From a virus: a stretch of DNA of 63,478 bases. Below, piece after piece: positions 4,986-52,600 of this stretch. Location: IMG/VR virus record IMGVR_UViG_3300009596_000001, positions 1 to 63,478 of that record; one strand, given 5' to 3'. The stretch's first letter is position 1. Each line of letters opens with the position of its first letter. The position numbers were made by a program, and so were the translations under genes. The notes below the pieces were generated by a model that saw only the letters and a list, made by a program, of their open reading frames with translations, ran no database searches and was not told where the DNA came from.

Positions 4986-5627
4986 TCAAGGCAAAACTAA
5001 TATTGCTGACAATACGCCGATATATTCTGGAGGCTTTGACACGCATAGATAGTTCATATTTGTGATGACATCGTATTTGTTGTTTGAAAAACGAAACTCA
5101 CTGACAATATCAACAGGTGAATACGAGCGGGTTACTACCGAGGTCTTCAAATAACCGCAGGGAGTTAAACCCTTTAGAGGTTGGCGCAGCGGTTCTTCGG
5201 TTTCAATTACAATGGTGCAAGTGTTTGTGTGGAAGAATTCAAGGCAAGCAGAAATCGTTCCGTCCTTTGGAATTTTCTTGAACGTGAATGCAAAGATAGA
5301 TGGCACAAGGGTAGCAACAGGAATGTCAAGTTTGATGTCATTCAGTAACTTAAAGTGGGGATATTTGGGTAGGGCAGATGTGAGTTTGATGAGGTTGATG
5401 TGGTCAATTTTGGCGGCTTTTAGCGCTGCTTCTAAGGCGAGGGTTTGGTTGTCCACATCAGTTAGCCCAATCGCTGAAACAATGACAAAATGTTTCGGGA
5501 TGAAAAGCGGAACTGACCTAACCCACTTCCCTACAATTGCTGTGGCGCAAAAAACATCGCTTGAAGTTGTGGCTTCGGCATCTTCTAACTTGGCTTCAGA
5601 CATCACTTCGTCTTTGGGCTTAGCCAT
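4986..5627 (-). CDS. Pyruvoyl-dependent arginine decarboxylase homologue
   Basis: About 213 residues. The core resembles archaeal and bacterial PvlArgDC, which self-cleaves at a Ser-Ser bond to make a pyruvoyl cofactor and converts arginine to agmatine. Matching blocks (numbered from an alternative start three codons upstream) are PKHF followed by a LALEAALKAAKI-type helix; NLIKLTSALP, where the family has NLI-x-x-SSI-x-P; LVPSIFA; GTISA; and VIETE. The key residues of the Methanocaldococcus enzyme, Asn47, Ser53 and Glu109, align with Asn81, Ser87 and Glu145; Ser52 is replaced by Thr86. The ATG at 5627 is preferred because GGAAGG lies 8 bases upstream; GTG and ATG codons at 5636 and 5633 are too close. 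It sits beside the Bet gene. Function as a true decarboxylase is an inference. Confidence 0.68.
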   Translation of the reverse strand: MAKPKDEVMSEAKLEDAEATTSSDVFCATAIVGKWVRSVPLFIPKHFVIVSAIGLTDVDNQTLALEAALKAAKIDHINLIKLTSALPKYPHFKLLNDIKLDIPVATLVPSIFAFTFKKIPKDGTISACLEFFHTNTCTIVIETEEPLRQPLKGLTPCGYLKTSVVTRSYSPVDIVSEFRFSNNKYDVITNMNYLCVSKPPEYIGVLSAILVLP

Positions 5628-5636
5628 CGTCATCAC

Positions 5637-10683: not shown

Positions 10684-11265
10684 CTTAATCTCTCCCCTCT
10701 GGACTTCGGACTTTGGGCTTCATCGTTTCTCTCTTACCCTCGTTAGGACAATTTTAAACCCTCAAGGACTTCCAAAACCCTATCAGTTTTGACCTATTTG
10801 CCCTCATTTTTGGCGATTTTGGGACTTGGGTCTGACGATGACGACAACGGTCATTCTAAGTTACATCCAAGTTACTGATTTTGAAACCAAACCCGTAACT
10901 CAAAATCGCCCATTTTTCCAGCAAAATCCAGAATTTTGAGGCAAGTTACAAAGTTACAAGGAAGGAAGGTAGAAGGAGGGATAGATAGGAAGGAAGGAAG
11001 GAAGGAAGGAAGCAAGGATATAAGGAAGAAGAAGGAAGTAACTTTGTAACTTAGTTCAAAAAAGCCCAACGCCGCTTGGATTTTTTCGGTTACATTTCGG
11101 TTACAAGACCTGTAACCCATTGAAACTTTGTAGTCAGGGCTTGTAACCTTGCTACTATCAGGGCTTGTAACCTTGCTACTCAATAGGATGAACCCTTTGT
11201 TGTCAAGACAATCTGACGATTTAACAGTCAACCTTGAACGACTGTTTTCGGGCTTGTCAGCCCAT
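10684..11265. repeat. Candidate origin: GTTAC/GTAAC-rich region around a purine tract
   Basis: About 580 bp without a credible gene. GTTAC or GTAAC occurs about twelve times between 10858 and 11171, in both orientations. A perfect 15-bp inverted repeat (AAGTTACAAAGTTAC at 10943-10957, its complement at 11038-11052) flanks an 80-base, almost pure purine tract of GGAA units. A 23-bp direct repeat containing CTTGTAACC lies at 11134-11156 and 11158-11180. Iteron-like words, a long dyad and a polypurine tract next to the primase-helicase gene are typical of a replication origin or its initiator-binding region. The last 180 bp before the primase are its untranslated leader. Confidence 0.5.
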
Positions 11266-13462: not shown

Positions 13463-13969
13463 TTAGATTAGACTGTCGTTGAGGGACATTAGCACGAGGA
13501 TTGATGTAATTTGATGTATTAATTCATCAACATTAAAATACTCAAAATGATGATAAATAGAAGAGTGCGGTGAACTATAACGGAGGATATAAGTTGGGGG
13601 CACTCTATCAAAAAACCTGAATTGAATAATCATCCTATCACCTTCTCTTTCCCTATTAATGTGAATAGTTCCCCAGCCATCGCCGCTAACTCTCGCTTTA
13701 ATCCTCAACATAGTCACCATGAACGATACACATCTTTCCACCATATCATACACAGCAACACACACCGAGTTTACCGATACCTGCCAATCAAAAACTATTT
13801 GCGGGTTGCGGCATTTTATTTCTACAAGGAGCACTTCATCTGTCAGTTTTTCTATCGTGTAATTAAGTTCTAAATGCGGAAAGTATTTCTTTAGTGCCTT
13901 GACTGTTGCGTCCATAATTTCCTTTACTTTCATTGTGGTATTTAGAATAGTAGTGTGTTTATTTTTCAT
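13463..13969 (-). CDS. Possible divergent member of the CxxC paralogue array, 168 aa
   Basis: Not recognised. It is the last gene of the array. It lacks the N-terminal CxxC but keeps a similar outline: N-terminal helix, central beta strands, a beta hairpin rich in aromatic residues and a C-terminal hydrophobic helix (DELIHQITSILVLMSL). The ATG overlaps the upstream stop (ATGA) and has AGGAGGTG before it; an in-frame start 17 codons upstream would encode an Arg-rich tail without a site. Homology with the array is inferred from architecture and position only. Confidence 0.65.
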   Translation of the reverse strand: MKNKHTTILNTTMKVKEIMDATVKALKKYFPHLELNYTIEKLTDEVLLVEIKCRNPQIVFDWQVSVNSVCVAVYDMVERCVSFMVTMLRIKARVSGDGWGTIHINREREGDRMIIQFRFFDRVPPTYILRYSSPHSSIYHHFEYFNVDELIHQITSILVLMSLNDSLI

Positions 13970-14520
13970 ACTGAAGCACCTCCTTCTTCTGCGGCTTGAA
14001 TAACATTCATAATACCCCATACGGTTTGAATTAATTTATCAAATGGCACTTTTATTTTTCTTTCGTTGCATACGCCGTCAATTTCTGTGTAGCAAGTTAT
14101 AGTTGCTGTTACTTTTCCCCAACCCTTTACGACATCTTCCGCCAACACCGCATCCCATTCCACCCTTAATGCTTGTTTCCCGCATCGCATATAAAACCCA
14201 TTCACCTCCCATATCTCCACCCAGTGAAACCCTACTTTACTTGCCAGCCTCACCAAGAAATCAGATATGAATTTAATCAAACTATCGTGCAAATCTTCGT
14301 TTATGAATGCGAGCGTATATCCGTCCCGCTCGTGGGGTGAATTATAGTAGTGATACACCACTACCATAATTTCATCACCCCATTCTTTTGTATGGTATAC
14401 ATAATTACCCGTGTTCAGTCCATTCACGCTTTTCACCACCTCCTCCATCCATTCCAAGATAGGACAAATAACACGAACCAAACGCCTAACTTTTGGTGGA
14501 TAAAGTAACAGTTTCATCAT
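13966..14520 (-). CDS. Possible divergent member of the CxxC paralogue array, 184 aa
   Basis: Not recognised. No CxxC. Predicted helix at residues 10-35, then beta strands containing EIMVVVYHYY, a middle helix (SLIKFISDFLVRLASK), strands, and a final helix (FDKLIQTVWGIMNVI). The order matches the canonical array members. AGGAGGTG precedes ATG, which overlaps the previous stop by 4 bases, so it is translated as part of the chain. Family membership needs a profile comparison. Confidence 0.65.
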   Translation of the reverse strand: MMKLLLYPPKVRRLVRVICPILEWMEEVVKSVNGLNTGNYVYHTKEWGDEIMVVVYHYYNSPHERDGYTLAFINEDLHDSLIKFISDFLVRLASKVGFHWVEIWEVNGFYMRCGKQALRVEWDAVLAEDVVKGWGKVTATITCYTEIDGVCNERKIKVPFDKLIQTVWGIMNVIQAAEEGGASV

Positions 14521-15047
14521 AAATCACCTCCTATCAATGTGTGCGCATAAAGTATTACAAATATTTCTGCAATTTTGTAGGCAATTTGTCGCAATAATTC
14601 AATATTGTTTTCGTCAATACTGCTATGTCCGGGAATTTTATCAAACACACATAACTGCGTATCGTTGCAATAAAAAACGATATTGTTGCGATTTACTTCT
14701 GCAGCAAAGAGAATGTCATCATTAAATCTAATTAAGATGTAGTGAATTGTGATGTAACAATTTAGCGTGAAGGGCACCGAGAAGCACTGTAATAAGCGCC
14801 TGACAAATGCGGAAAATGGTTTCTCGTAATATTTATTTATACCATGCGGCGTTGGTAAATAATGATAATAAACTTTATTTACTTGCGGCATACTAAACCA
14901 CACATTTTCAACATGCGACTCGGTGTCATGTTCCACCTCAACTATCCGTGCTTGCAACTCATTTACCCCTACTTTCTTTACGATATCATTAAAATACCCA
15001 ATAAACTCAAACGGCAAATTGCACAGTGCACATTTTTTTCGCTTCAT
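14517..15047 (-). CDS. CxxC paralogue array member 7 (divergent), 176 aa
   Basis: Retains a C-x2-C (KKCALCN) followed by a helix, but at residues 6-9 rather than about 22-25, so the leader of the canonical members is missing. The remaining order of strands, PFSAFVRRLLQCF helix, hairpin and C-terminal hydrophobic helix matches the family. GAGGAGGTG precedes ATG; starts and stops overlap by 4 bases with both neighbours. Confidence 0.7.
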   Translation of the reverse strand: MKRKKCALCNLPFEFIGYFNDIVKKVGVNELQARIVEVEHDTESHVENVWFSMPQVNKVYYHYLPTPHGINKYYEKPFSAFVRRLLQCFSVPFTLNCYITIHYILIRFNDDILFAAEVNRNNIVFYCNDTQLCVFDKIPGHSSIDENNIELLRQIAYKIAEIFVILYAHTLIGGDL

Positions 15048-15559
15048 ACTTCGTTCACCTCCTCAATTGTTTTTAGCATTACAAAGAAATTTATCAAAAA
15101 CCCTATCGTTTCTTCAAGTCCCTCCACCCTACAAACTAATCCCCGCTGTGCTTCCACAACATTTAAAGCAATCTTATCGTGAAGAAATTCAAATTGATAA
15201 ATATGTCCAAAATTATCATATACCTTTGGAATACCATCCACAAAAAATGCATTTCGCATTTCAAATATTTCTTTCAACATCCGCCACATCCCACGCATAA
15301 AAGCCCCTACCGATGTATATCCATGAATTGTTCGCAACCACACATACCCATCACGAGAAAACAACGCCACCTCTACCAAGTGTCCTTCATCTATTTCCAT
15401 AAACACCGGAGAAATACATAAATTGCTTTTACCACACCTCCGTAGATGTAAATTTATAAACTTGATTGCCTTCCTTGCTATTTCACATGCTTCACATTCT
15501 TTCAACCCCCACGCTTCCTTTCTTTTTTGTGGTTCCTTCTTGAACACATCACAATACAT
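15044..15559 (-). CDS. CxxC paralogue array member 6, 171 aa
   Basis: Canonical member. Residues 1-20 have the family pattern MYxxxxKxxPxKRxxxW; C-x2-C (KECEACE) is followed by an amphipathic helix with INLHLRR; GHLVEVALF strand; W-x-TIH strand; FMRGMWRMLKEIF helix; IYQFEF hairpin; and the C-terminal signature VEGLEETIGFLINFFVMLKTIEE. Nearest to member 5, sharing ARKAIKF-IN-L-L and MLKTIEEVN. The start ATG overlaps the previous stop (TGATG) behind GAGGAGGTG. No known function. Confidence 0.78.
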   Translation of the reverse strand: MYCDVFKKEPQKRKEAWGLKECEACEIARKAIKFINLHLRRCGKSNLCISPVFMEIDEGHLVEVALFSRDGYVWLRTIHGYTSVGAFMRGMWRMLKEIFEMRNAFFVDGIPKVYDNFGHIYQFEFLHDKIALNVVEAQRGLVCRVEGLEETIGFLINFFVMLKTIEEVNEV

Positions 15560-16068
15560 CAAAAATTCACCTCCTCAATTGTTTTTAGCATCACCAGAAA
15601 ATTCACTAAAAATTCTATTGTTTCTTCAAATCCTTCTATTCTGTAAACTAATCCTTGCTGTGCCTCAACAATATCCACACCAATCTTATCTGAGTGGAAC
15701 TGAAATTGGTAGATATATCCTTGCGTTAGGTGGTATACTGAGGGAACACCGTCTGCTAAGAATGCGCTTCGTATCCCCACCGCTTCCTTGACTATCCGCC
15801 ACACATCCCGCATAAACGCTACAATTGACTGCCTATGCAGTGTTTCCAGCCACACATACCCATCGCCCACACACAACACCGCCCTTATCAAATGCCCCTC
15901 TATTACACCTACAAATGCTGGGTAGATGTATATGTTTTTCAAGCACTTGTGTAGATACAAATTTACAAATTTTATCGCTCTCCTTGCCATTTCACAATCT
16001 TCACACCCCTTTTCTCCCCACAGTTGCCTTCTCTCCGCAGGTTTTTGTTTAAGCACATCATAGAACAT
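15559..16068 (-). CDS. CxxC paralogue array member 5, 169 aa
   Basis: Canonical member with KGCEDCEMARRAIKFVNLYL, GHLIRAVL, FMRDVWRIVKEA, IYQFQF and FEETIEFLVNFLVMLKTIEE. It is clearly the closest relative of member 6, consistent with a recent duplication. CGGAGGTG is placed 7 bases before ATG; the gene overlaps member 4 by 11 bp. Confidence 0.78.
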   Translation of the reverse strand: MFYDVLKQKPAERRQLWGEKGCEDCEMARRAIKFVNLYLHKCLKNIYIYPAFVGVIEGHLIRAVLCVGDGYVWLETLHRQSIVAFMRDVWRIVKEAVGIRSAFLADGVPSVYHLTQGYIYQFQFHSDKIGVDIVEAQQGLVYRIEGFEETIEFLVNFLVMLKTIEEVNF

Positions 16069-16576
16069 CGGAATTCACCTCCGTTTCGGATATTTCTAAC
16101 ATTGCAAATAAATTTAGTAAAAACTCAATTATTTCTTCTAATCCTTCTATTTTACAAACAAATCCTGAAGGAGAAATCACATTAACACGAAATTCATTAT
16201 CAGAAAATTCTAATCTATATTGCCACCCAAACTCACCATACACAATGGGGATATTACCAACACGTTCATTCACCTTAAACACAAATCTAAGTATTGACCA
16301 TACTCCACCGAAAAAACTTGAAAGTTTGTTGTTTTTATGCAATGACCACATCCACAATCGCTTATCCCCATACACCAACTCAACTCCCACTACATGACAC
16401 TGCACTATTTGTGTTACTGTAGGAACAAAACTTTTATTTCGCCTAAGATACTTGCGTAGATACCAGTTCACATATCCCACAACTCCCCACAACAACTCGC
16501 ATTCATAACAACCCCTCATTCCCAATGCCCCCCTCTTTTCTCCCGGTGTCATTTGTTTTAACTCAAAATACGCCAT
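16058..16576 (-). CDS. CxxC paralogue array member 4, 172 aa
   Basis: Canonical member: PGEKRGALG leader, RGCYECELLW, YVNWYLRKY helix, CHVVGVELVYG strand, WMWSLH, a helix with SILRFVFK, YRLEFSDNEFRVNV hairpin and LEEIIEFLLNLFAMLEI. AGGAGGTG before ATG; overlaps member 3 by one base. The SxNEFxV hairpin is shared with members 1 to 3. Confidence 0.78.
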   Translation of the reverse strand: MAYFELKQMTPGEKRGALGMRGCYECELLWGVVGYVNWYLRKYLRRNKSFVPTVTQIVQCHVVGVELVYGDKRLWMWSLHKNNKLSSFFGGVWSILRFVFKVNERVGNIPIVYGEFGWQYRLEFSDNEFRVNVISPSGFVCKIEGLEEIIEFLLNLFAMLEISETEVNSDVL

Positions 16577-17088
16577 TATAATTCACCTCCTTCAATTTGT
16601 CCCAACATTGCAAACACACTCACCAAAAATTCAACTGTTTCACCAACCCCTTTAACAACAAACACATCCCCGCTTGCTGTAAAAACCTTCACACCAAATT
16701 CATTTTCAAAAAATTCAAACCTATATTTCCATCCCCGCTCGTCGTAAACCGCCGGCACATTTACGACAATAAAGGGGATAGAAATTTTGAATATAATTCC
16801 CATAATTCTCCACACACACTTCTCTAAAAATTCTTGTAAATTATCAAATTGATGCGGCGATTTAATTGCTACATATTTTGAGTGTAAAAGCACAGTTACA
16901 GACATTAAGTGCTTGCGATATATCTCCGTCTCCATCGGCACAAGTTTTAACTCTCTCCTGCCACATTTATGCAGACACTTGTTTATTTCCCGTATCACCT
17001 TTTGCAGCATCACACATTTACAACACCACCTCTTGCCCCATACTTCTCTTCTTTTTACAGGTTTCACTTGCGAGAGTTTATTATACAT
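16576..17088 (-). CDS. CxxC paralogue array member 3, 170 aa
   Basis: Canonical member with PVKRREVWG leader, RWCCKCVMLQKVI, INKCLHKCGRREL, a HLMSVTVLL strand, YRFEFFENEFGVKV hairpin and VGETVEFLVSVFAML. It has extra cysteines in the CxxC region (WCCKC). The ATG at 17088 is favoured, 8 bases after GGAGGTG; a GTG codon just upstream is too close. Overlaps member 2 by 8 bp. Confidence 0.77.
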   Translation of the reverse strand: MYNKLSQVKPVKRREVWGKRWCCKCVMLQKVIREINKCLHKCGRRELKLVPMETEIYRKHLMSVTVLLHSKYVAIKSPHQFDNLQEFLEKCVWRIMGIIFKISIPFIVVNVPAVYDERGWKYRFEFFENEFGVKVFTASGDVFVVKGVGETVEFLVSVFAMLGQIEGGEL

Positions 17089-17596
17089 CACATGACACCT
17101 CCTCTTGGCTGTTATAGAGCATGATGGCGAAACTTACTAAAAATTTGATTGTTTCTTCTACCCCTTTTATCTCGCACACTTCCCCTGACGGCAACCTCAC
17201 CCTTAAACCAAATTCTTCGTTTGAAAACTTTAATCTATACCACACAACATTACCCCCACACATAACCTGAATAGAACCTTCATTCAACAATCCAGCCACC
17301 CCAACAACATTTGCCACTAATCCACACACCTCTTTCATAAACCCATGCATCCCCTCAACGTGCAGCGACCACACCCGCAATCTCCCAAAACTAAATTCCA
17401 GTCCTACATCTATGACGTGCCCTTCCCTCTTGTATACCTCTACCGGAACCACACACAAATCCCCAAAACCACACTTCCGCAAATAGAAGTTCATATACCT
17501 AATCACATCAAGCATCAGCATACACACGCTACATTCCTTAATTCCCCAAACCGACTTTCTTTTTTCAGGTTTCACTTTTCTTAGGTTATAATACAT
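17081..17596 (-). CDS. CxxC paralogue array member 2, 171 aa
   Basis: Canonical member: MYYNLRKVKPEKRKSVW leader, KECSVCMLML, YMNFYLRKCG, VYKREGHVIDVGLEF, VWSLH, YRLKFSNEEFGLRV hairpin and VEETIKFLVSFAIMLYNS. It is the sister of member 1, with VYK-EGHVIDVG conserved in both. GAGGAGGTG precedes ATG. Two bases, not an overlap, separate it from member 1. Confidence 0.8.
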   Translation of the reverse strand: MYYNLRKVKPEKRKSVWGIKECSVCMLMLDVIRYMNFYLRKCGFGDLCVVPVEVYKREGHVIDVGLEFSFGRLRVWSLHVEGMHGFMKEVCGLVANVVGVAGLLNEGSIQVMCGGNVVWYRLKFSNEEFGLRVRLPSGEVCEIKGVEETIKFLVSFAIMLYNSQEEVSCDV

Positions 17597-17597
17597 T

Positions 17598-18113
17598 CTA
17601 CTTCACCTCCTCGCTTAAGTTTGAATTGTGAAGTATGATGGCAAAATTCACTAAAAATTTGATTGTTTCTTCTAATCCTTTTACCACACATATTTCACCA
17701 GTTGATAACTTCATCCTTAATCCAAATTCATTTGCCAAAAACTCTAATTCATACTGCACAGTATCACCACCACATTCAACCGAAATAACACCTTCCTTTA
17801 ACAATTTTTCTACACCAACCACCTCGCTTATTAATCTACACACCTCTTCCAAAAACCTGTGTATACCAGAGAAATGCAATGACCACACCCAGCAATTCCA
17901 ACCGCAACATTCCATCCCTACATCTATCACGTGCCCCTCTTCCTTATATACTTCTGCGGGAAACACCCGTAAATCTCTACGACCATACCTCTTCAAATAC
18001 CGGTTCAAATGCCTAACCACCTCCAGCGTTGCCTCACACATACTACACTCTCCAATCTTCCACACAGCCTTTCTTTTACCGGGCTCTATTTTTCTAATGT
18101 TATAATACATCAT
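17598..18113 (-). CDS. CxxC paralogue array member 1, 171 aa
   Basis: First gene of the array after the VWA gene. Canonical layout: MMYYNIRKIEPGKRKAVW leader, GECSMCEATLEVV, HLNRYLKR, VYKEEGHVIDVGME, VWSLH, helix with FLEEVCRLISEV, YELEFLANEFGLRM hairpin and LEETIKFLVNFAIILHNS. The single CxxC could bind zinc across a dimer interface, or be redox active at a helix N terminus; the sequence does not decide. AAGGAGGTG precedes ATG. The function of the family is unknown. Confidence 0.8.
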   Translation of the reverse strand: MMYYNIRKIEPGKRKAVWKIGECSMCEATLEVVRHLNRYLKRYGRRDLRVFPAEVYKEEGHVIDVGMECCGWNCWVWSLHFSGIHRFLEEVCRLISEVVGVEKLLKEGVISVECGGDTVQYELEFLANEFGLRMKLSTGEICVVKGLEETIKFLVNFAIILHNSNLSEEVK

Positions 18114-18129: not shown

Positions 18130-18169
18130 TCAACATTGATATTAATCAATCAACATTGATATTAATCAC
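18130..18169. repeat. 20-bp tandem duplication across the VWA-gene stop codon
   Basis: Two adjacent copies (18130-18149, 18150-18169) differ only at the last base. The reading frame ends inside the left copy, so the duplication supplies the last residues (VVININVD) and the stop. It probably arose by slippage and may have altered the C terminus. Confidence 0.85.
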
Positions 18170-19468
18170 TACTGCGGGCGGTGGTATATCAACTTCTTTA
18201 TCACCTACCACCACCACGATTAACCTTACATCCACATCCTCTACTCCAGCCCAATCGCACCAGCCGTCTGTCAAAACCACAACTTCGTCAAACTGACCCC
18301 ACTGCAATACCTCTTTTATCGCTGCCACCATGTCCGTTCCACCACCGCCAATAAGTTCTATTTCGTCCACACTACCTACCTCTTTGGGCTCTCCTTTCAA
18401 GCATGTGTCTGCGCACACGACAGACACACGCTTTCTTACTTCTAAAATTGCACGAACCTCGGACAGGACTGCCGCCAACTCCCTTTCCGACATTGAGCCG
18501 CTTGTGTCAATAATGACACAAGAGCGGCTCGGCGAGTGCAGCCTGTCCGTAGGTAGGATGATATTCTCGTCAATAAATGCTCTTTTCGCACGATGAAAAT
18601 CCTTGCGTAGAACTGACGGCTTACTGCGTGCACGGGTTAACTTGTCACGCAGTATTTGCCGCCAGTCTACTTTTGCGGGCTCCAACGCTCTATCCACCAC
18701 AATTTGCAGTTCCCCGGGCAAGTTACCGACGGTTTTTGCTGCGTCGGCAACTTGCCGCAAAACCTCCCGCCTGAACTCTTCGGTGATGATGCGGTCATCC
18801 TCCTCCTGTTCCCATTCAGCCTTCCGCCCTGTAACCCCACTACCCTCGTTTTGCGCTTTTTCCACCGCTTCCTTCAACTTTTCACCTGCCCCGCCGTCAT
18901 CACTTTTTCTTTGCGACGGGGCAGAGGATGATGCGGAGGATGACGACGAAGAAGATGCAGAAGAAGACGCAGAAGAAGACGAAGAAGAAGCGGGCGAGGA
19001 TGCGGACTGCATGCGGCGCATTATTTCTTCGGCATACTCCTCCGCTGTTAATCCCCAAGGCAATCCATAGTTGACGGGGAGTAACATACCGAACGCGCGC
19101 ATCTCTTTCTCCCATTTCTCTCCGCCGACCTCACGGAGAATTGAATTCACCGCAAGGTCGGCTGCTATGTTAGCCACGTTCGCAGGATACTGCTTCATTC
19201 GTTCTCCATGCTGCGCTGCAGCATGGAGAACTTCGTGGACGAAAACGATAAACTGTCGCTCACTATTCTGTTGAAGCATTTGCGGGTCCACATACAACGT
19301 CCACCTTTCATCCACCCCCATCGTGTGGAACGGCAAGTTCTGGACCCGCAGCCTCAACTGCACTGCGACGGGGTAAAGATACGGCAACTCCCGCCGCAAC
19401 CGTAGACGACACTCCTCTAACATTCCTGCCACTTGAATGATAAATTCATTCTGCTTCTGTTGCGTCAT
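18146..19468 (-). CDS. VWA-like protein with zincin motif (DUF2201-type), partner of MoxR ATPase
   Basis: About 440 residues. The N-terminal part has HEVLHAAAQH near residues 78-87, the putative metallopeptidase motif of DUF2201 proteins. Residues 170-190 are a Ser/Ala-rich low-complexity linker. The C-terminal half is VWA-like: a VIIDTSGSMSE MIDAS near 320, later GGGGTDM and VVLTDGW. In bacteria such proteins pair with MoxR AAA+ ATPases and help assemble or load metal into client complexes. GGAGGTG precedes two in-frame ATGs; the second gives better spacing. It follows the ATPase gene by 6 bases, so the two form an operon. The client in the phage is unknown. Confidence 0.82.
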   Translation of the reverse strand: MTQQKQNEFIIQVAGMLEECRLRLRRELPYLYPVAVQLRLRVQNLPFHTMGVDERWTLYVDPQMLQQNSERQFIVFVHEVLHAAAQHGERMKQYPANVANIAADLAVNSILREVGGEKWEKEMRAFGMLLPVNYGLPWGLTAEEYAEEIMRRMQSASSPASSSSSSASSSASSSSSSSASSSAPSQRKSDDGGAGEKLKEAVEKAQNEGSGVTGRKAEWEQEEDDRIITEEFRREVLRQVADAAKTVGNLPGELQIVVDRALEPAKVDWRQILRDKLTRARSKPSVLRKDFHRAKRAFIDENIILPTDRLHSPSRSCVIIDTSGSMSERELAAVLSEVRAILEVRKRVSVVCADTCLKGEPKEVGSVDEIELIGGGGTDMVAAIKEVLQWGQFDEVVVLTDGWCDWAGVEDVDVRLIVVVVGDKEVDIPPPAVVININVD

Positions 19469-19474
19469 CGTCAT

Positions 19475-20638
19475 TCACCTCCGTGAAATAATTTGCGTCA
19501 ACTGTATATCCAAGATGCCTGCGCGCAGCATGTATCTGCTACATGCTGCACGCAGGCGCTCGGACACGTCTGAAAGTTTCGCGCACTTATATTCATCCAA
19601 TATTAACTTAAATTTGGTTTGCACGAACGCAACGAAATCTTCAGTTTTGTATGATGACACGACGCCGATAATGCCCGACATCACCGCAAAAGCGATGTCG
19701 GGCTTAGATGGGTGCAGATATTCTTTAAGGATTGCGGGGTTTTTAATTACATCTACGGGGTTAGGCAGTCTTGTGTTTTGTATGTAGACGATAAGTTGTG
19801 CTGCTGCCGCTTGACCCACCGTTGCGCACGCTACCATGCTCCACTCCGAGGCGGTCATGTTTGTGACCGCCATCATTCGTGCGCATAAATCCCATGTTCT
19901 CCTTGACGGGAACACGGGATTTTTTCTGTCAATCGTGCTAACACGCCTGAATTGCGGGTTCGCTTTCAAGAAACCCGCAACGAGCATGTTAGCACGCATG
20001 AAATTTTCTCGTGCGGTTTCAGGGGAAATATTATTAACAGATACATTACAGGAGTTTTTGCGGGACACGAGCCACTCCAACCACTCGTCATCTCCCGCTT
20101 CGTCGGGCAGCAGCGTAAAGTGCGCTGCCCGATTGCAGAACGCGGGCGTGAGTGGTATATCGTTATAACTCACGCCCGGGGGATTTGATAACGCTATAAA
20201 ACGCACATTGGGGTTGGGTTGGAAGCGGTAAATTGCACGGGGGTTTTCAATCGCCAGCGTATCATACACGACGCCTTGCAGGGCGGCAATCACGTCCGCC
20301 CTGGCGTCGTTCAATTCCTCAAGAAGCACGATTGTTGGCTCGTCAGACGACATTGCGTCTGCGAGCCATCTGGGGGGCAGAAAATCCATTACGCCATCCT
20401 CCTCGCATTTCACGGGATATCCGCCTACATCTTCGGGCACCATTCTGGTTGCCCGAATTTCAAGTAGACGGAACCCGTTTTGCCGGGCGAATTCGTTCAC
20501 AATACTGCTTTTTCCTTCGCCCGGCAAAGACCACACGACAATTAACCGTGCCCCGAACTCGGGGTCACGGACAATAAAACGGAGCGGTTCGGACATGCTT
20601 ACGACCTTTGCGCCAATTAGCGTCTGTTCAGCACGCAT
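19475..20638 (-). CDS. MoxR-family AAA+ ATPase
   Basis: About 387 residues. Walker A is PGEGKSSI near residues 39-46; the MoxR-typical P-E-D-V-G-GYP follows the second strand; Walker B is IVLLEELNDA near 103-112, with Glu in place of the usual Asp; sensor 1 is FIALSNPP; and an arginine-finger-like FCNRAAHF follows. These ATPases remodel partner proteins with VWA co-factors, and the next gene encodes one. The ATG at 20638 is chosen because GGAGGTG lies 6 bases upstream; an ATG five codons earlier is itself part of that site. C-terminal residues 270-387 are helical, as in the lid of MoxR proteins. Confidence 0.85.
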   Translation of the reverse strand: MRAEQTLIGAKVVSMSEPLRFIVRDPEFGARLIVVWSLPGEGKSSIVNEFARQNGFRLLEIRATRMVPEDVGGYPVKCEEDGVMDFLPPRWLADAMSSDEPTIVLLEELNDARADVIAALQGVVYDTLAIENPRAIYRFQPNPNVRFIALSNPPGVSYNDIPLTPAFCNRAAHFTLLPDEAGDDEWLEWLVSRKNSCNVSVNNISPETARENFMRANMLVAGFLKANPQFRRVSTIDRKNPVFPSRRTWDLCARMMAVTNMTASEWSMVACATVGQAAAAQLIVYIQNTRLPNPVDVIKNPAILKEYLHPSKPDIAFAVMSGIIGVVSSYKTEDFVAFVQTKFKLILDEYKCAKLSDVSERLRAACSRYMLRAGILDIQLTQIISRR

Positions 20639-20669
20639 TGTGAACACCTCCATCTTAGTATCTTAGTAT

Positions 20670-21355: not shown

Positions 21356-21391
21356 AAAAAAAATGCGGGACGGGCGTGAACCCGCCCCGCA
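21356..21391 (-). terminator. Intrinsic terminator after the 115-aa gene
   Basis: TGCGGGACGGG pairs with CCCGCCCCGCA around a 6-base loop (one A-C mismatch); leftward it is followed by eight T residues. Confidence 0.8.
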
Positions 21392-21814: not shown

Positions 21815-21847
21815 AAAAAATGCGGGACGGGCATAAACCCGTCCCGC
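21815..21847 (-). terminator. Intrinsic terminator after the 142-aa gene
   Basis: GCGGGACGGG and CCCGTCCCGC pair perfectly around a 6-base loop; leftward TTTTTT follows. The stem resembles the neighbouring terminator, suggesting duplication. Confidence 0.82.
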
Positions 21848-22707: not shown

Positions 22708-22743
22708 TAAAAAGAAAACCCCGCCGCCGATATGGCGGCGGGG
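22708..22743 (-). terminator. Intrinsic terminator of a short non-coding unit
   Basis: CCCCGCCGCC and GGCGGCGGGG form a perfect stem with GATAT as loop; leftward TTTTCTTTTT follows. No gene lies between it and the next terminator upstream (22882-22919), so it ends a short non-coding transcript or catches read-through. Confidence 0.8.
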
Positions 22744-23336: not shown

Positions 23337-23489
23337 TCAATCCCTCCTTACTTGTTGAATTTCCCGCAGCCTATCGCTGCGGTCATCATCAATTATAGCC
23401 GTCAAAACTTGTCCAGTCAACACAAAAAATTCCAGAATTGCCTGACACAATCCTGTAGCCCTGTCTATTTCATTTTGCTTCACTTTCAT
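23337..23489 (-). CDS. Small protein, 50 aa, first leftward gene
   Basis: A continuous frame from ATG 23489 to TGA 23337 encodes a 50-residue protein with an amphipathic helix (RATGLCQAILEFFVLTGQ) and a charged C terminus ending VRRD. Its last codons contain the AAGGAGG ribosome binding site of the next gene, 2 bases away, which is a normal operon junction. A GTG two codons downstream has better spacing from AAGG than the ATG. Function unknown; possibly an early host-takeover peptide. Confidence 0.6.
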   Translation of the reverse strand: MKVKQNEIDRATGLCQAILEFFVLTGQVLTAIIDDDRSDRLREIQQVRRD

Positions 23490-24273: not shown

Positions 24274-24302
24274 TTGCAAGACACTGTCGTGTGTGTTAAA
24301 AT
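24274..24302 (+). promoter_or_regulatory. Promoter of the rightward arm
   Basis: -35 TTGCAA, 17-bp spacer, -10 TAAAAT, 22 bases before the hydrolase start. The TTGCAA -35 is shared with promoter B and with the scaffold promoter. It could drive the whole late operon. Confidence 0.6.
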
Positions 24303-24324
24303 TAAAACTGGAGGTGACGGCATC

Positions 24325-24885
24325 GTGTCTGTCAAATCTACTGGGTCTATTAGGTCTATTACTTTGCGGGAAGTTTTAAAGCGGGCGAAGTCTGCCATAT
24401 CCCGCAAAATTCGTTATGGGTTGGGGTATGGTGGATTGAACCCTGATGCGCCTGGTCCTGAAAGTGCTGAGGGGTTATGTGATTGTAGTGGGTTTGTTTG
24501 TTGGTGTTTGGGGTTTAGCAGGAAGGTTGATGATGTGAAGTATGTTGAGTTTAATGGTGGGTGGGTGAATACGGATGCGATGATACAGGATGGCAAGTAT
24601 TGGGGTAGGTTATTTACGATATTGGATGAACCGAAGGTGGGTTGTTTGATTGTGTATGGAAGTGGGAAAGGTCGTCGTTATGGGCATGTAGGGATAGTTG
24701 TGTCGGTTACGAAGGGCAAGGTAGAGAAGGTTATTCATTGTTCTAAGGAGAATGAGCGTAGGTATGGGAATGCTGTGTGGGAGACTGACGATGCTGTATG
24801 GCGGGGCAAGAAGACTTATTTTCTTTGGTATAAGGGGATTGTTGGGCATAAGGGGATTGTGGGGCAGAAGGGGGGAGTGAAGTGA
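24325..24885 (+). CDS. NlpC/P60-type peptidoglycan hydrolase (candidate endolysin)
   Basis: A 186-residue papain-like peptidase. The catalytic Cys is in LCDCSGFVCW, the His in YGHVGIVV, and a third polar residue probably follows in KVIHCS. NlpC/P60 enzymes cut peptide stems of peptidoglycan. The GTG start is fixed by GGAGGTG 8 bases upstream; the frame is open 17 codons further without a site. The C terminus has a duplicated KGIVG(H/Q)KG(I/G) tail. It opens the rightward arm just before the terminase genes, an unusual place for an endolysin, so a virion or early role is possible. Confidence 0.75.
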   Translation: MSVKSTGSIRSITLREVLKRAKSAISRKIRYGLGYGGLNPDAPGPESAEGLCDCSGFVCWCLGFSRKVDDVKYVEFNGGWVNTDAMIQDGKYWGRLFTILDEPKVGCLIVYGSGKGRRYGHVGIVVSVTKGKVEKVIHCSKENERRYGNAVWETDDAVWRGKKTYFLWYKGIVGHKGIVGQKGGVK

Positions 24886-25430
24886 TGGGGCGCAGAAGGC
24901 GAGAGGGATTGGACAAAGATGAAGGGAAGTTATTGCGTTGGATACTTATTGTTCGGAAGATGAAGGAGGAGGGGCTACCTGCTTCTGTTGCTTTCAAGAC
25001 TTTATGTGAGTATGGTGTGAGTTTTGATGTGGCGTTTGAAATTGTTCGTGATGAATATGGGGTTTTGTTGGACGATTTATTGCGTTGGAGTGAAGAGGAA
25101 GGCTGGATGGAGGAGGGTGGATGGTTTAGGAAGATAGAAGAAGGGATGGGGATAATAATAGAGGGTAGGTTAGTTCGTAGGGCGTTGGAGGGAAGTGTTG
25201 CTGCTCAGAAGGCGTATCTTGTGAAGTGGCGACCTGAAGAGTGGAGTGAGCGGGTTAAGGTGGAGAGTGTTGGGGAGCCTGAAACGAAGGTGATGGTAGT
25301 TTTGGGTTATGTGCCGAAGGACATGGAGCAGAAGGTTTTGCCGCCTGTTGTTGAAGTTGTGGACATTTCCAAGCAGGTTTTAGAGGCAGGTGAAGAAGGT
25401 GAAGGCGATAGAGAAGGTTCTGATGCCTGA
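24885..25430 (+). CDS. terS: Terminase small subunit (candidate)
   Basis: A 181-residue acidic, helical protein located directly upstream of and overlapping TerL. N-terminal 60 residues have helix-turn-helix-like spacing; residues 100-125 include ALEGSVAAQKAYLVKWRPEEWSER, the pattern seen before the C terminus of many small terminases. It should bind the packaging-initiation site and activate TerL. ATG at 24885 follows a GGGGAG site and overlaps the hydrolase stop. Assignment rests mainly on position and this motif. Confidence 0.65.
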   Translation: MGRRRREGLDKDEGKLLRWILIVRKMKEEGLPASVAFKTLCEYGVSFDVAFEIVRDEYGVLLDDLLRWSEEEGWMEEGGWFRKIEEGMGIIIEGRLVRRALEGSVAAQKAYLVKWRPEEWSERVKVESVGEPETKVMVVLGYVPKDMEQKVLPPVVEVVDISKQVLEAGEEGEGDREGSDA

Positions 25431-26811
25431 TGGAAGTGTGCGTGTTCAGTTCAACCTGACGCCGAAACAGCGGGAGTTTTTGAATTTACCGCATAGGTAT
25501 AGGTTATTTTTGGGTGGTGTGGGGAGTGGGAAGACGACTGCTGGATGTTTGGAAGTCATAAGGGTTTGTTTGTTTTACCCAGGTTCGCAAGTTCTTGTTA
25601 TGCGTAAGACTGCGAGGGAGTTGGAGAAGACGACTTTGCAGGTGTTGGAAGAGTTGTTGTTGCAGTTGAATGAAGAAGTTGGCGGCAAGAAGGTGAAATT
25701 TTACTTGGACAAAAGCACTGACGGGCAATATTTTCTTGTCAAAAGTTTGTATAGGGATGGAGAGATAGGGCATTCGTTTATTTACTGGACAGGTGCAGAT
25801 AAAGTGGACAAGATACAGGGGATGAACTTGAGCGGGTTTTTTGTGGATGAGGCGAGGGAAATTGAGCAAGAGTTTTTTGATGTGTTGAGGTCAAGGTTGC
25901 GAAACCCAAGAGGACCGAGAAGGGGATGGTTGGCTTCGTTGCCGCCACCTTCAGGTCATTGGCTTGACAGGTTATTCTTGCAGGGTGAGGGCGGTGAGGA
26001 GTATGGTTACATCCATGCGACGACTTTTGACAACCCCAACTTGCCGCAGGATTTTATAGAGGACATAATGCGGTATGACGAAAGGATATATCGGGAGTTG
26101 GTGTTAGGGGAGCAAATTCCAAGTGCTGTAGGTGGACCGATAATAACGAACTTTTCTAAGAAACATCATGTTTTGGCTGGAGATAGGTTGAAGGAGAAGT
26201 TGGATGAGTTGGGTAGGTTGTATGGTGAAAGGTTGCATGTGTATCGGGGCATAGATTTTGGGTATCATCACCCCGCTTGTGTTTGGGGGACATTTGACAG
26301 CAAGGGTAGGTTTATTGTGTTGCGGGAGTATATCGGGGAGAAGATGACTTTGAACGAGTTTTTGGGGAAGATAACTGCAATTGACGCCCAAGAAGGTTGG
26401 CGTGTCCTTGCCGATTTTCACGACCCACACTCTACCTACACGACCGACTTATTTACTGTGGACAGGGTTGAAATTATGAAGGAAAAAGGCTTGCATCCTG
26501 TCCCTGCAAGTTGTAGGTTTGAGGATGGGATACATATGTTGCAAAAGTTGTTTGGGACTTTGATATTTGGCGAACCTATGTTGCAGTTGTCTGAACGATG
26601 TAGGTTACTGATTTTAGGGTTTGAAGGCGAATATTGTTGGGATAGGACAGGGACGAAAGTTAGAGACAGTATTGTCGTTCACCTTGTAGATGCGTTAAGA
26701 TATATGGTAATGGGTTTGTGGGGACGGTTGAGTTCCAATATGTCCGTTACTGTCCCTAAGAAAGAGAAGAGGTGGTCGGGTTTTTCTTACAACGAAGACT
26801 TTGCGAGGTGA
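25390..26811 (+). CDS. terL: Terminase large subunit
   Basis: A 473-residue DNA-packaging motor. Walker A is LGGVGSGKTT (about 41-50), Walker B GFFVDEAREI (about 149-158), and the nuclease domain starts near 290 with YRGIDFGYHHPA, followed by VLADFHDP and the C-terminal RDSIVVHLVDALRYM helix. It cuts concatemers and drives DNA into proheads using ATP. The start is a GTG inside the terS gene; a second GTG three codons later has better spacing from AGG, so the exact start is uncertain. The overlap with terS is 41 bp. Confidence 0.92.
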   Translation: MKKVKAIEKVLMPDGSVRVQFNLTPKQREFLNLPHRYRLFLGGVGSGKTTAGCLEVIRVCLFYPGSQVLVMRKTARELEKTTLQVLEELLLQLNEEVGGKKVKFYLDKSTDGQYFLVKSLYRDGEIGHSFIYWTGADKVDKIQGMNLSGFFVDEAREIEQEFFDVLRSRLRNPRGPRRGWLASLPPPSGHWLDRLFLQGEGGEEYGYIHATTFDNPNLPQDFIEDIMRYDERIYRELVLGEQIPSAVGGPIITNFSKKHHVLAGDRLKEKLDELGRLYGERLHVYRGIDFGYHHPACVWGTFDSKGRFIVLREYIGEKMTLNEFLGKITAIDAQEGWRVLADFHDPHSTYTTDLFTVDRVEIMKEKGLHPVPASCRFEDGIHMLQKLFGTLIFGEPMLQLSERCRLLILGFEGEYCWDRTGTKVRDSIVVHLVDALRYMVMGLWGRLSSNMSVTVPKKEKRWSGFSYNEDFAR

Positions 26812-46640: not shown

Positions 46641-49600
46641 GTGAGGAAGCAAAGGACGGATGTATTTGACAAGAACTTCGTTGCGTCTATGCTCTTTGAG
46701 GAAGGGTTGCGAGCGGGTGTTCCACTGCCTTCCTTGTTCAGTTGGTTCTACATTATGAACTTGGAAGGTGGCAGCCCCTATGCTGTCACTGTAGAAGGCA
46801 ATAAAACACGCTCTTACGGTCCTTTCCAGATTAACGATGTCCATGCAGAAGAAATTCGGAAAATGGGTTTGCGGTTTCCGCAGGATATTTATGCAACAAG
46901 AGATTTGCCGCCAGAAGAAGTCAGGCGGCGCATACAGAACCACATTCGTTATGTCATTCAAAGAGACAAGCAAATTCGTGAGCGGTTGAAGGCATTGAAC
47001 CCTCAACTTTACAATGCTGTTTTTAATGTAGAGTTCGGACAAGTTAACCCTATGGCTTTACAGCATTTGATTGGATATTACATGGCTTCTTGGAATGCCC
47101 CTGCTTTTGCCGACAATGTAGCAAGGGGCGACTTTAGACCATTAGCACCGGGTGTTGCTGTCTATCGGCTTGCTGATGCAAGACGAAGGCAAGAAGCCTT
47201 CCGAGAAGCAATTCAGATGTGGCAAAACATTACGCAAAGTTATGTAAGACAACAATCGGAGAGGGTGTATGGTGAAGTTTCAAAGGCTATTTCTGCAGCA
47301 CTTGATGCCGGGCGAATTCGTGTCAGGACAGGTAGGGTGCCAGTTTCTGCTGTTTCACCTTATCAAATCCGAGATGCCATCGTTCCCAATGTGATTTCCG
47401 TTATTCCCCAAGTAAGTCAAGCCGCTAAGATGTTATCGCCAGAACATATCCGAAGATTACGACAAGAATTTCCAGAAGTAGAGAGTATGATACCCGTGAC
47501 GACCAAGACCCCTCATGAATATGTTGCTGCGTTGTCTCTTATCGGCGAACTTGCAAAACAACGAACCGAATTTGCTCAAGCGTGGAACTTGTTGCCTAAA
47601 CCTGTCAGACAACAAATCCTGTCAACTATTGTAAATTACAGCCACAAAGTTAGTGGGGCAAGGGATGAAAAAGCCAAAAAGAGAATGATTGTTGAGGCGA
47701 CGACCCAATTAGCGGCGATGCTTACCCCTCGGGGTGCTGTAGAAGAAACCAAGCGGTTTGCATCGGCGTTAGGTCAGGAAGTATGGGGCTTCATCACTGG
47801 AGTTGTAAAAGAAGCAGTATCAATTCCTGCTATATTTGTTGCAGCGGCTAAGAGTGGCGAATTAAAGAAGGTTTGGTCTTACTTGGACAAGGTTAGGTCA
47901 ACAAGAAAGGGAGTAGATAAAGTTGCTGCCGAAATTGCTTATGCCGCTGTTCATAACAATCCCGCCATTTCATTTGCTTGGGGTGGAATTGTAAAAGGGT
48001 TGGCACATATGGTTGGCTCAGTTCTTGTAGGAATTCCCGAAAAGATATTTGAGTATGTGCCCGATAAAGTGCCGGGCGCAAAGGTTATAAAGCAAAAACT
48101 ACAGGAAGCACTTCAATTTATTGATAAGTCGCTCGGTCCTATGATAGTTTCTGAAAGCATCAAACTGTCCAAAGACCCCAATTTCAGAAAGCAACACTTA
48201 GACGATGCTGTTATGTTCCTTGCTGCGTCGGGTTTAAGACATTTGTTGGATGTTCGTGCGGGTAGATATATTCCAACAGAACAAGGATGGGAACTTTATA
48301 CTGCTACACTCTTGCAAGGTAGAGTTTACGAGATTTTGAACAACGCCTTACGCACTCAGACTGGCGACCACTGGGCATTTAGGTTAATATCAGAAGCCAA
48401 CTTAACAGATTACAGGGCAACGGGTCCGCTTATCGGGATATTTGCTACTGGCGGTTTGTTAGGTGCTGCAAAACTTGCAAGAATGGCTTTAAGCGGGATA
48501 AAGGCAGCAGAAGCACCTGTTGCTGCAGCAGCGCTTGCTGAAACTGGAAACCTTGAAGCGGCGTTAATGATAGGGCGTGGGTTGGGTAACTTGACAGCAA
48601 GGCAAAGATTGGTTCACGGCGCTCTTGCAACCGCACAAGCGATTATTACCCCCGGGCATATGTTTGAACGCTTTTTCACAAGGGTTGGGTTGAATACTGC
48701 TTTGAAGCGGATGGGGATTGATGGCATTGAAGGGCTTAGGGCAATTGCTGCAACTGAAGGTTATCAAGCAGCATTAGACATTCTCCATCAAGTTGCTCCC
48801 AAAGTCTCTGGCTTTTCCAAAATTGCCAGTTCCTTTATCACAGGTGCTGCTTACACTTGGGGCGGGATGCCATCACACTTCAGTAGTCCCGGGGAAGCAA
48901 TAGGTCACTTTGTTGGCGGGACGCTCGTCAATATGCTGTTTGACTTACCTTACATCTATCACGGCAGTGTGGAATTAATCAAAGGCACAAAGAAGCCAAG
49001 GCATGAAATTCTTCGTAACCCTGCTTTTGCCCCTATCATTGCAGCGGTTTATGAGGAAGGTTTTATCCAACAAGCGCTACGAAATCCTGATATATTCAAG
49101 ATGTTTATAGACCCCCGCATTTTAACCCGCTTACATGCTGTTGCTGACCTTAACGCAATGGAGCGCACATTCACTCCCAAGAAACAAAGTCGGGCGTTGT
49201 TTGTGTTGAACATTCCCACCGAAAACGAAGTAAGGACATCAAAGCGAATTGAGGAAACATATGCAAGGGCATATGAAGCCCTGCCACCAAGCGATGTTGA
49301 ACTTGTGGGGCGCATGTTGCACGCTTATAAACTGTTTGAAGACGCAAAAGAAGCGGCGAGAAAGAAACACAAGTTACCCCAAGATGTTGAAAAGCCTGAA
49401 GATATGACTATAGAGGAGTGGCATCGTGAAATTGTAAGAATTTGGGGCGAAAAGATGTTTAAGGAGCAGGTTTGGGGCAAGAAGTTTGATATTAGGGATT
49501 TGGCGAAGGCTACAGCAGCACTTCACATTTTAACCCATGCAAGGTGGTTTGCCGACTTCTTCTATTCCGAAGACCCAGAAGCAGCACAACAAATGTTTAG

Positions 49601-52600
49601 GCAGGTTTTGTGGTATGGGCTTAACCGATTGCGCAGCGCTTTGGATGCGGTTAAAGATGTAAAGCCTCATACAGCGGTTGAGGAAGATAACTTGTATCAC
49701 AGCATTGTTGACCGGTTTATATCGGAGTTTTATGGCGGATTTCCCGTCATCGGAGAGTTGATGAAGTCATTGATGGCTCATCAACTAACGCTGTTTGGCG
49801 CTGTCAAAATTGCAGAGGGGGCGAAGATAGCAGGAAAATCCCCTGAAATGCTTGTAGAGCAAGCAGATATTGCAATAAGGGAAATGAACAGAATTTTCAT
49901 GCGTAACTTACCCGAGTATCTTATCCGATATACTCAAGGGTTAAGTGTTGAAGGTGTGCGTGAGTTGTGGGAGAAAACCGTTGAGCCAGAAATGAAGCAA
50001 CAAATTAGTTTGGTTGTTGAACCATCCACTATCGTAACCTATGCAAAGGAACTTCTTGATGAACTGACCGCTAAACTTAGGAAGGGTAGGGCTGCCGCTC
50101 AATTCGTGACACCTTGGCGGCGGATGATTAGAGCCCTTAATGCTTTGGATGCAGCAATTCGGGCAGAAAAAAGGCAACAAGAAGCAAAGAAATTTGCCGA
50201 AGAAAAGGCAATAGAAGAAGTGATGAAGGCACAACAAGCAGCAGAAGGTCAAGTTACAGGAGAAGCGCCTGTTCAAGAGCCCACAACAATTGAAGTTCCG
50301 CCCGAACAAAAACTTACCCAACAACCTACGGTTGAGCAAGTTGAAAAACCCACTACACCACACGGCGAGGGCATTATTCGGGCGGGAGTGACTTACCCTG
50401 CTGTGTCTTCGTTGCTAAAACCTGCGGAGTATGTTCCCATGCGAAGATGGACGGACATGCGTGACTGGGGCGATGACTATCTTCCCGCTCCAATGATGGA
50501 AGACAAAATAACGGTATTGCCTAACGAAATGTGGCGGAATGCTTGGATGTCCCTTCCGGAAAGACCCGCAAATATAGAAGAATACATACGGGCTCTTGAC
50601 ATTGCAACAACAAGTTTTGCTTTGTCCTTCTTTATGCATCCCGAAGTTCAACCTAAATTCTTCGGTAGCCATATACCTTCTATAGCAATTGTTTCTGCCG
50701 ACTTAGCCCGAAAGATAAAAGAAAACCCTTACTATACATCGCAATTTCACATTGTTGCTGTAGACGCCGGTCCAGTCCAAGAAAGAAGCCCTTATGAAAC
50801 CGATGAAGTGTTGTTGATAATGGGGAGTAACCAACACTGGACGCCAGAAAGTTTGCGAAGGTTTGCTCAAAGTGTTCAGACTATATTCTGGAGCCAAAAA
50901 ATACCTCACGAATTTTGGGAGTTCGTTTTGGATGCGTGGAGCAGGGTGGACAAGAAGGATATGCCTAACATCGTGCGCTTTTTGTTCGCTGCATTACCGG
51001 GGATTAATGAAACTCCCATCCTAAGGCAAAGAATGGGATTGGATAACGATGCTGTTTGGGAGAGAGTAGTAGAATTCATCAACGAAGACCCTGAATTCTT
51101 CTATGGAGATTGGCTGAAAAAGAACATAGAAGAGATTGTGAATGGCATAATCCAACGGGAACTTACTCATTTTGGTGTAAGTCCAGCCTTTAACTTACCT
51201 GAACGGGTTATTGACGGGTTGCGAGCAGCCCGAAGCATTTTCCCCTTAGAAACTCCCTATCAAGCAATAGCAAATGCGATGCTTATAATTTCTGCAACCC
51301 CAATTAGAAGCGAATATCACTCAAGAATGTTGAAATCTCCCGCTGCATATCTTGTGAAAGCGCTTGTTCCAGACACAGTAAGGGGAGATTGGCGTGAAAC
51401 AATGAGGACAATCAGGGAACAATTTTTCATTCCCTATTTGCAAGCATACTTGTTTGGTTCAAGGCGTGAGGGTAAAGTAGAAGTGGTTGAAGGCGAATGG
51501 GATATTCGGGTTGACCGAAACACCAATACAGTTGTATTTTCCATCCCGCCAGAAGAAGAAGCCTCGTTCTGGGCATATTATGCACTTGCCGTTCAAACCG
51601 CATCTGAATTTTATGATACCCGTTACTTGTTACCTTCTCGGACTTCACCTTCTCGTGCTGATTTGTTCAACTTCTCCCCACCAAGATTGTTTGAAGAGTT
51701 TATCCGGTCACGGGCACCGCAACAGGTTGTTGATAAGTTAGAGCAGGTTAGCGAAATTGCACAATTGGGTAGGATTAATGAACTTAGAGGGATTAGCCTT
51801 GAGCCCATAGATGTAGCAGTAGAGTATCAATCAATCGCAGGATTTGCTTGGGCTGTTCCAGAAGTAACGGCAAGTATAATAAGAAGCCACACTGAATATT
51901 TGCGTGACATTTTAAGGCATGATTTGAGTAGAAGTCCGGAGTTGTTGCGGGTAATAGAAAGGATTAGTGGGAAAGAGGGGTTGGATAATGTCGTTGAATG
52001 GCTTGAAAAGAACATTCAGGTGTTGTTGATTGCCCAAAGCATGGCGCCAGTCGCATTCACCTTAGGACCCGCACACGACCTGCCAATTGCAGGTGCTTTT
52101 ATCCCTCATAGTTTTTCACATCCAGCAAGACCGCTGAAGTCTTTCCTGTGGTTTAGCACACTGAGTTCATTAATATCAAAAAGCCTTCACGAAGTATTTC
52201 ACCTTATTACCCATGTAGACGAGCAACCCACTTTCAGGACATTAGTTGACGCTTTAAACAGGGCGGAACCAGAAACAAGAAGGAACGCCATCCTATTTAT
52301 TTTGAATTTGGCAGACCAATTATTATCGGCTGGAACTAAATGGGCTTCTCTATATGGAGTATCTCTCCTTTATTTGCTCAAATCCATAGACCCACAACTC
52401 GGAAAGTTAAGCAGAGCAGTTATCCCTATAAGTGGCGACTTCTATGATGGTGTGATTTCAGCACTTAACGGGTTAGAAAGTAGGGTTAGAGATTTGGCAA
52501 AACCCTTGGGAATTGATGCTGATGTTATGTTTAGACCCTTGTTTGATGTTACGGGTCGGTTGAAAGATATGCTTGAAATGTCCAAGCGGTTGGCAGCGAT

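Follow-up and report, generated by a model that had tools for sequence, protein, structure and literature searches.

At least seven neighboring genes of a 63-kb viral record appear to form one new protein family with a predicted CCHH metal site

The viral record IMGVR_UViG_3300009596_000001 was analyzed over its full length of 63,478 bases, hereafter the window. It contains an array of nine genes, m1–m9, located directly 3′ of a gene for a VWA protein on the minus strand. Judged from sequence comparison, m1–m7 represent a single family of at least seven neighboring copies, with m7 as a distant member. The family appears to be new, and its fold is predicted with confidence and is unmatched among known structures. 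The arrangement itself, in which many diverged copies of a small protein lie side by side, is already known in kind. We tentatively favor the reading that m1–m7 are binding proteins that share one scaffold, with each paralogue specialized for a different host partner. The genes of the array and the two genes upstream of it are listed in Table 1.

Table 1. Coordinates of the array genes and of the adjoining MoxR–VWA genes in the window
Gene	Position	Strand	Length (aa)	Remarks
m1	17598..18113	-	171	first array member; ATG ATG start; Shine-Dalgarno just past the VWA gene
m2	17081..17596	-	171	nearest to m1 (58%)
m3	16576..17091	-	171	length as listed (GTG at 17091); ATG at 17088 suits the Shine-Dalgarno better
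m4	16058..16576	-	172	
m5	15559..16068	-	169	nearest to m6 (56–57%)
m6	15044..15562	-	172	length as listed (TTG); ATG at 15559 suits the Shine-Dalgarno better
m7	14517..15047	-	176	distant member; without the N-terminal leader; retains C6, C9, H45, and H68
m8	13966..14520	-	184	similar size, same operon; no CxxC; no detectable homology
m9	13463..13969	-	168	length after start moved from 14020; no CxxC; no detectable homology
VWA protein with N-terminal putative metallopeptidase domain	18146..19474	-		DUF2201_N + DUF2201 (Pfam, 9.9e-27 and 1.2e-12); directly upstream of m1
MoxR-type AAA+ ATPase	19475..20653	-		AAA_5 (Pfam, 1.8e-6), phrog_1297 (7.6e-31); partner of the VWA protein

The source virus probably infects bacteria. 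The rightward half of the record is structural and encodes a terminase (3.7e-45), a portal/adaptor protein, and a major head protein. The leftward half encodes a primase, a metallophosphoesterase, a protein with a weak RuvC-like match, a methyltransferase, and the MoxR-type ATPase with its VWA protein. The array lies within this leftward DNA-metabolism unit, together with the primase, RuvC-like, and MoxR–VWA genes, and its orientation is opposite to that of the structural genes. The AAA+ gene adjoins a VWA gene that carries an N-terminal metallopeptidase domain, as is characteristic of MoxR–vWA pairs, and such pairs were found in many other phages.

The preliminary description of this DNA had reported six consecutive genes of 169–172 residues. 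They lie on the minus strand, and all of them match one another by BLASTP. The 15 pairs among m1–m6 are homologous with E values of 4e-21 to 1e-67; the sequence identity is 58% for m1–m2, 56–57% for m5–m6, and 30–38% for the remaining pairs. In the tree, m1/m2 and m5/m6 are supported at 97/99 and 90/98, respectively, and the placement of m3 and m4 is unresolved. Since the closest relatives are adjacent, both by identity and in the tree, the local duplication suggested earlier is supported. Three additional genes had been put forward as possible divergent members, of which m7 can be retained. It is matched by the m1–m6 profile among 17 neighboring proteins (E 5e-6) and when the window and six loci were searched in six frames (E 4.5e-4), and hhalign aligns its first ~70 residues to m1–m6 with an E value of 0.0012. 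No homology of m8 or m9 to m1–m6 was detected with profile searches or hhalign (E 0.078 and 0.38, respectively). Visual inspection would allow m8 and m9 the same succession of helices and strands; a Chou–Fasman prediction agreed only 43% on m1 and is too poor to judge the fold of either protein.

The structure of m1 was predicted with AlphaFold2 using a six-row alignment. The model is a single domain (pLDDT 86.9, pTM 0.84) that consists of a strand (residues 2–5), two helices (11–18 and 24–42), three strands (51–58, 61–69, and 72–77), a helix (79–99), four strands (108–114, 117–125, 131–135, and 141–145), and a final helix (147–166). The model of m7, obtained with a seven-row alignment, has a similar order of elements at lower confidence (pLDDT 67.4, pTM 0.69), and it shares alignment rows with the m1 model and so is not independent of it. 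Neither unrelated folds nor a single known family emerged for m1–m6: the family was modeled as one confident fold, with m1 and m7 as the members folded separately.

Nine columns of the alignment are invariant across m1–m7, and four of these are C, C, H, and H. The four residues, C23, C26, H61, and H80 in the numbering of m1, are invariant in m1–m6 and aligned in m7. The alignment of m1–m6 bears out the conservation that had been described for the CxxC, the GHV/GHL turn, the histidine that closes the WSLH strand, and the helix at the C terminus. The statement that the CxxC stands by itself does not hold, as H61 and H80 are invariant in all seven proteins. In the model, C23 and C26 are found at the start of helix 24–42, H61 where the first strand of the sheet turns into the second, and H80 at the beginning of the helix that follows. 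An antiparallel meander is usual for three strands that are joined by such short turns, and with this inferred topology the four residues would share one end of the predicted sheet. A zinc ion bound between subunits by a lone CxxC had been proposed previously. The metal site is plausible, but because H61 and H80 are also invariant, a CCHH zinc site within each chain of m1–m7 is probable and is favored over an intersubunit site.

The earlier impression that the proteins belong to no recognized family was upheld. Nothing significant was found in Pfam, NCBIfam, PHROGs, or PADLOC, and no enzyme family or catalytic motif was matched in these collections; the one match to the PADLOC models of defense systems was that of m4 to Cas6 (E 0.013). 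The tblastn searches of 50,697 phage records with m2, m6, m7, m8, and m9, and of plasmids with m6, returned nothing significant. Pattern scans of IMG/VR (patterns A1, A2, A3, m8, VWA, and MoxR) and of the GTDB genomes (pattern A1) returned no relative, although these few short patterns could miss distant ones. The terminase search led to six loci with 26–33% identity, and none of these carries the array family in a six-frame profile search. Foldseek found no significant match to the predicted fold in the PDB or BFVD, there was no match in Rfam, and the PDB sequence search gave nothing significant; a uS14-like zinc motif was rejected since its matches have E values of 0.06–0.43.

Two candidate relationships were considered further, and neither gave a significant result. 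The matches of m1 and m2 to DUF1818 (PF08848) are subthreshold (E 0.013 and 16.1 bits for m1 in Pfam; 16.5 and 13.2 bits in the genome search) and lie below the curated cutoff of 25 bits. A DUF1818 profile of 15 cyanobacterial members, obtained via a phycocyanin scan, gave a co-linear profile–profile score of 16.0 over 80 columns, which is lower than the ten best of 200 shuffles (17.3–19.7). A control with rotated profiles was not informative, as the matching segment survives most rotations. The second candidate was the PUR/Whirly-like β4-α repeat fold, for which PUR-alpha gave a Foldseek E value of 0.16 and a TM score of about 0.2, with no significant superposition. PUR-alpha and 2nvn recur as weak Foldseek matches (E above 0.1, TM near 0.2). 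We take 2nvn to be a DUF1818 protein, which SCOP presumably groups with the ssDNA-binding regulator fold. The strand and helix order of DUF1818 and of the PUR/Whirly-like folds is similar to that of the last ~90 residues of the array proteins; DUF1818 lacks the CCHH region that is present in the array family.

The GGAGG-type Shine-Dalgarno sites and short overlaps between genes that had been noted in the array were both confirmed. The Shine-Dalgarno sequence of the next gene lies within the last codons of each of m1 to m8. In five copies these codons are GAG GTG preceded by GAG or ACG (EEV or TEV), and in m3, m7, and m8 they are GGA GGT (GG); m9, the last gene in the row, has no Shine-Dalgarno at its end. 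The C-terminal EEV/EGG can be regarded as mostly, and at least partly, a translation of the Shine-Dalgarno that serves the next gene, and the terminal glutamate is conserved at least in part because the ribosome binding site overlaps it. Residues 167–171 of m1 are disordered in the AlphaFold2 model (pLDDT <50). The presence of AGGAGG inside the end of m8 places the start of m9 probably at the ATG at 13969 rather than at 14020. Other genes of the record are likewise tightly packed and overlap, for example 2638–3135/3132–4169 and 24274–24885/24882–25430. No strong terminator-like sites were found between gene u1 and m9 on the array strand, and a sigma-70-like site with an 11/12 match is found at 23420–23392 on the minus strand; overall, 20 promoter-like sites were observed, not more than the 22.9 expected by chance. 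The sigma-70-like site and the missing strong terminators would fit a single leftward transcription unit. Terminator-like hairpins with T runs at 21358–21391 and 21815–21847 (minus strand) are 91% identical and 457 bases apart, and two further G+C-rich terminator-like hairpins are located at 22743–22719 and 22921–22892.

All nine reading frames are open, and m2 to m9 are each preceded by a good Shine-Dalgarno. The pairwise dN/dS values from the NG86 method are 0.15–0.51 and thus below 1 in every computable pair, with several pairs saturated, and on saturated pairs NG86 is a weak test of positive selection. The YN00 method, computable for a minority of the pairs, gave 0.64 for m1/m2 and values up to 0.83. 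In m1/m2 and m5/m6, the two closest pairs, dN exceeds dS in no 40-codon window; the m1/m2 windows near codons 81–140 approach parity (dN 0.40–0.44 vs dS 0.52–0.57). On average, the copies of the array are under purifying selection. Combined with an identity of ~57% for the best pairs, this speaks against a recent amplification of the array. The most variable blocks are strands b1–b2 with their tip, and helix a2 with the loop that follows (pairwise identity 0.18–0.28). The conserved blocks are the N-terminal leader, the histidine turn, the last helix (a3), and the metal residues. The G-over-C skew of the coding strand is high in m1–m6 (15044–18113) at all codon positions and most marked at the third (0.45–0.77), and m7 and m9 are without a strong skew (0.05 and 0.11). 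A similar skew is found at 24274–26811 on the plus strand, in o24274, o24882, and the terminase, and is therefore not confined to the array.

The reading of m1–m7 as partner-specific binding proteins draws on several of these results. Intact copies with NG86 dN/dS values of 0.15–0.51 argue that selection maintains every copy for some function. The strands and helix a2 vary, whereas the leader, the metal site, and the last helix are conserved, a pattern that points to a shared scaffold carrying a variable region. The lack of any match to an enzyme family or catalytic motif, the position of the array in the leftward unit opposite to the structural genes, and the precedent of the AcrID1 homologues in SIRV2 also speak for this reading. 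Under this proposal, m1–m7 would be single-domain α/β proteins, each probably stapled by one zinc that is held by the C-x2-C at the start of helix 1 and by the two invariant histidines, one in the turn that joins strands 1 and 2 of the central sheet and one at the N-terminal end of the following helix. The proteins would be made together from the leftward nonstructural transcription unit, with an early timing that is suggested by their position, and may act as stoichiometric binders in host takeover or anti-defense, presumably with one partner for each paralogue. What counts against this proposal is the absence of any sign of the positive selection that an arms race would produce, albeit with a weak NG86 test. 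The earlier suggestion of diversification against variable targets is therefore neither established nor refuted: the copies have diverged, and dN/dS is below 1 in all computable pairs.

The main alternative, which is rather unlikely, is that the paralogues are subunits of one heteromeric complex, such as a ring or filament, in which each has its own position and which the MoxR–VWA/metallopeptidase pair assembles or processes. The array is directly 3′ of the MoxR and VWA genes on the same strand, and the Shine-Dalgarno sites of m2 to m9 inside the end of the preceding gene imply coupled production in a fixed order. The lack of a strong terminator-like site between gene u1 and m9 and the divergence of the copies under purifying selection are also consistent with such a complex. 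However, overlapping and tightly packed genes elsewhere in the record make the coupling nonspecific, and many phages have MoxR–VWA genes, yet the array family was found by tblastn in none of the 50,697 records. Iyer and co-workers reportedly proposed the virion-assembly chaperone role of MoxR–VWA in jumbo phages. Phage MoxR–vWA pairs have been proposed as assembly chaperones, and the MoxR–vWA/metallopeptidase pairs of group 2.2 jumbo phages were proposed to function in virion assembly (PMC7824862). The latter have the same architecture as the genes upstream of m1 (DUF2201_N + VWA, AAA), whereas here the pair is followed by the array in a record of 63 kb. The pair described here (18146–20653, minus strand) sits in a 63-kb record, and such pairs are reported in jumbo phages (PMC7824862). 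A more elaborate version, in which all nine proteins m1–m9 would have evolved jointly as parts of a new hetero-oligomer that has a novel zinc-stapled fold and is built or remodeled in the infected cell by this pair, is decidedly improbable.

A role of the array proteins as nucleic-acid-binding regulators or structural DNA-binding proteins, perhaps on a PUR/Whirly-like β4-α repeat scaffold and comparable to the expanded zinc ribbons of phage G, is unlikely. The predicted zinc site, the basic N-terminal 48 residues (9–14 K/R vs 3–6 D/E), the predicted element order βββ-α-ββββ-α, and the weak recurring matches to PUR-alpha, 2nvn, and DUF1818 (Pfam E 0.013) would all suit such proteins. Set against these are a pI of 6.2–7.5 in five of the six proteins, Foldseek E values above 0.1 with TM near 0.2, and the DUF1818 profile score of 16.0, which falls below the best shuffles (17.3–19.7). 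It is very improbable that the array is a degenerating expansion of redundant copies without distinct functions: the leader of m7 is lost and m8 and m9 are past recognition, but all frames are open, m2 to m9 have good Shine-Dalgarno sites, and synonymous changes outnumber nonsynonymous ones in all computable pairs.

A comparable arrangement exists in SIRV2, which has 12 genes for homologues of AcrID1, and 26 of the 35 known AcrID1 homologues are clustered in four rudiviruses (PMC11065993). As in the array, a small viral protein is represented there by many diverged paralogues whose genes are close neighbors. However, the AcrID1 clusters are found in archaeal viruses with mostly monocistronic genes, whereas the array appears to be one polycistronic unit whose products have a CCHH motif; no sequence relation is known, and the two are likened by gene arrangement alone. 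In Bacillus phage G, too, a putative zinc protein has expanded within a single phage lineage, with about 35 copies of a zinc ribbon of uncertain function (PMC7824862). Those proteins are zinc ribbons, unlike the ~170-residue α/β domain of the array, in which the CCHH residues are distributed between a turn that joins two strands and the first residues of helices.

The array adds an apparently unseen family to the few viruses in which a small protein is known to be maintained in many diverged, adjacent copies. Being coupled, intact, and diverged, the copies provide a natural set for exploring whether arrays of phage paralogues supply binders for different targets or the components of one machine, and the array allows one to ask whether phage MoxR–VWA pairs have clients that are encoded alongside them.

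Other features of the record were also observed. An open reading frame at 4986–5636 (minus strand) matches pyruvoyl-dependent arginine decarboxylase (Pfam PF01862, E 1.1e-7), and no relative of it was found by tblastn in the 50,697 phage records. A single open reading frame of 5137 residues at 46641–62054 (plus strand) occupies approximately one-quarter of the record and has no match in PHROGs or Pfam. The noncoding segment at 11134–11180 contains an exact 23-nt direct repeat with a spacing of 24 nt (TCAGGGCTTGTAACCTTGCTACT).
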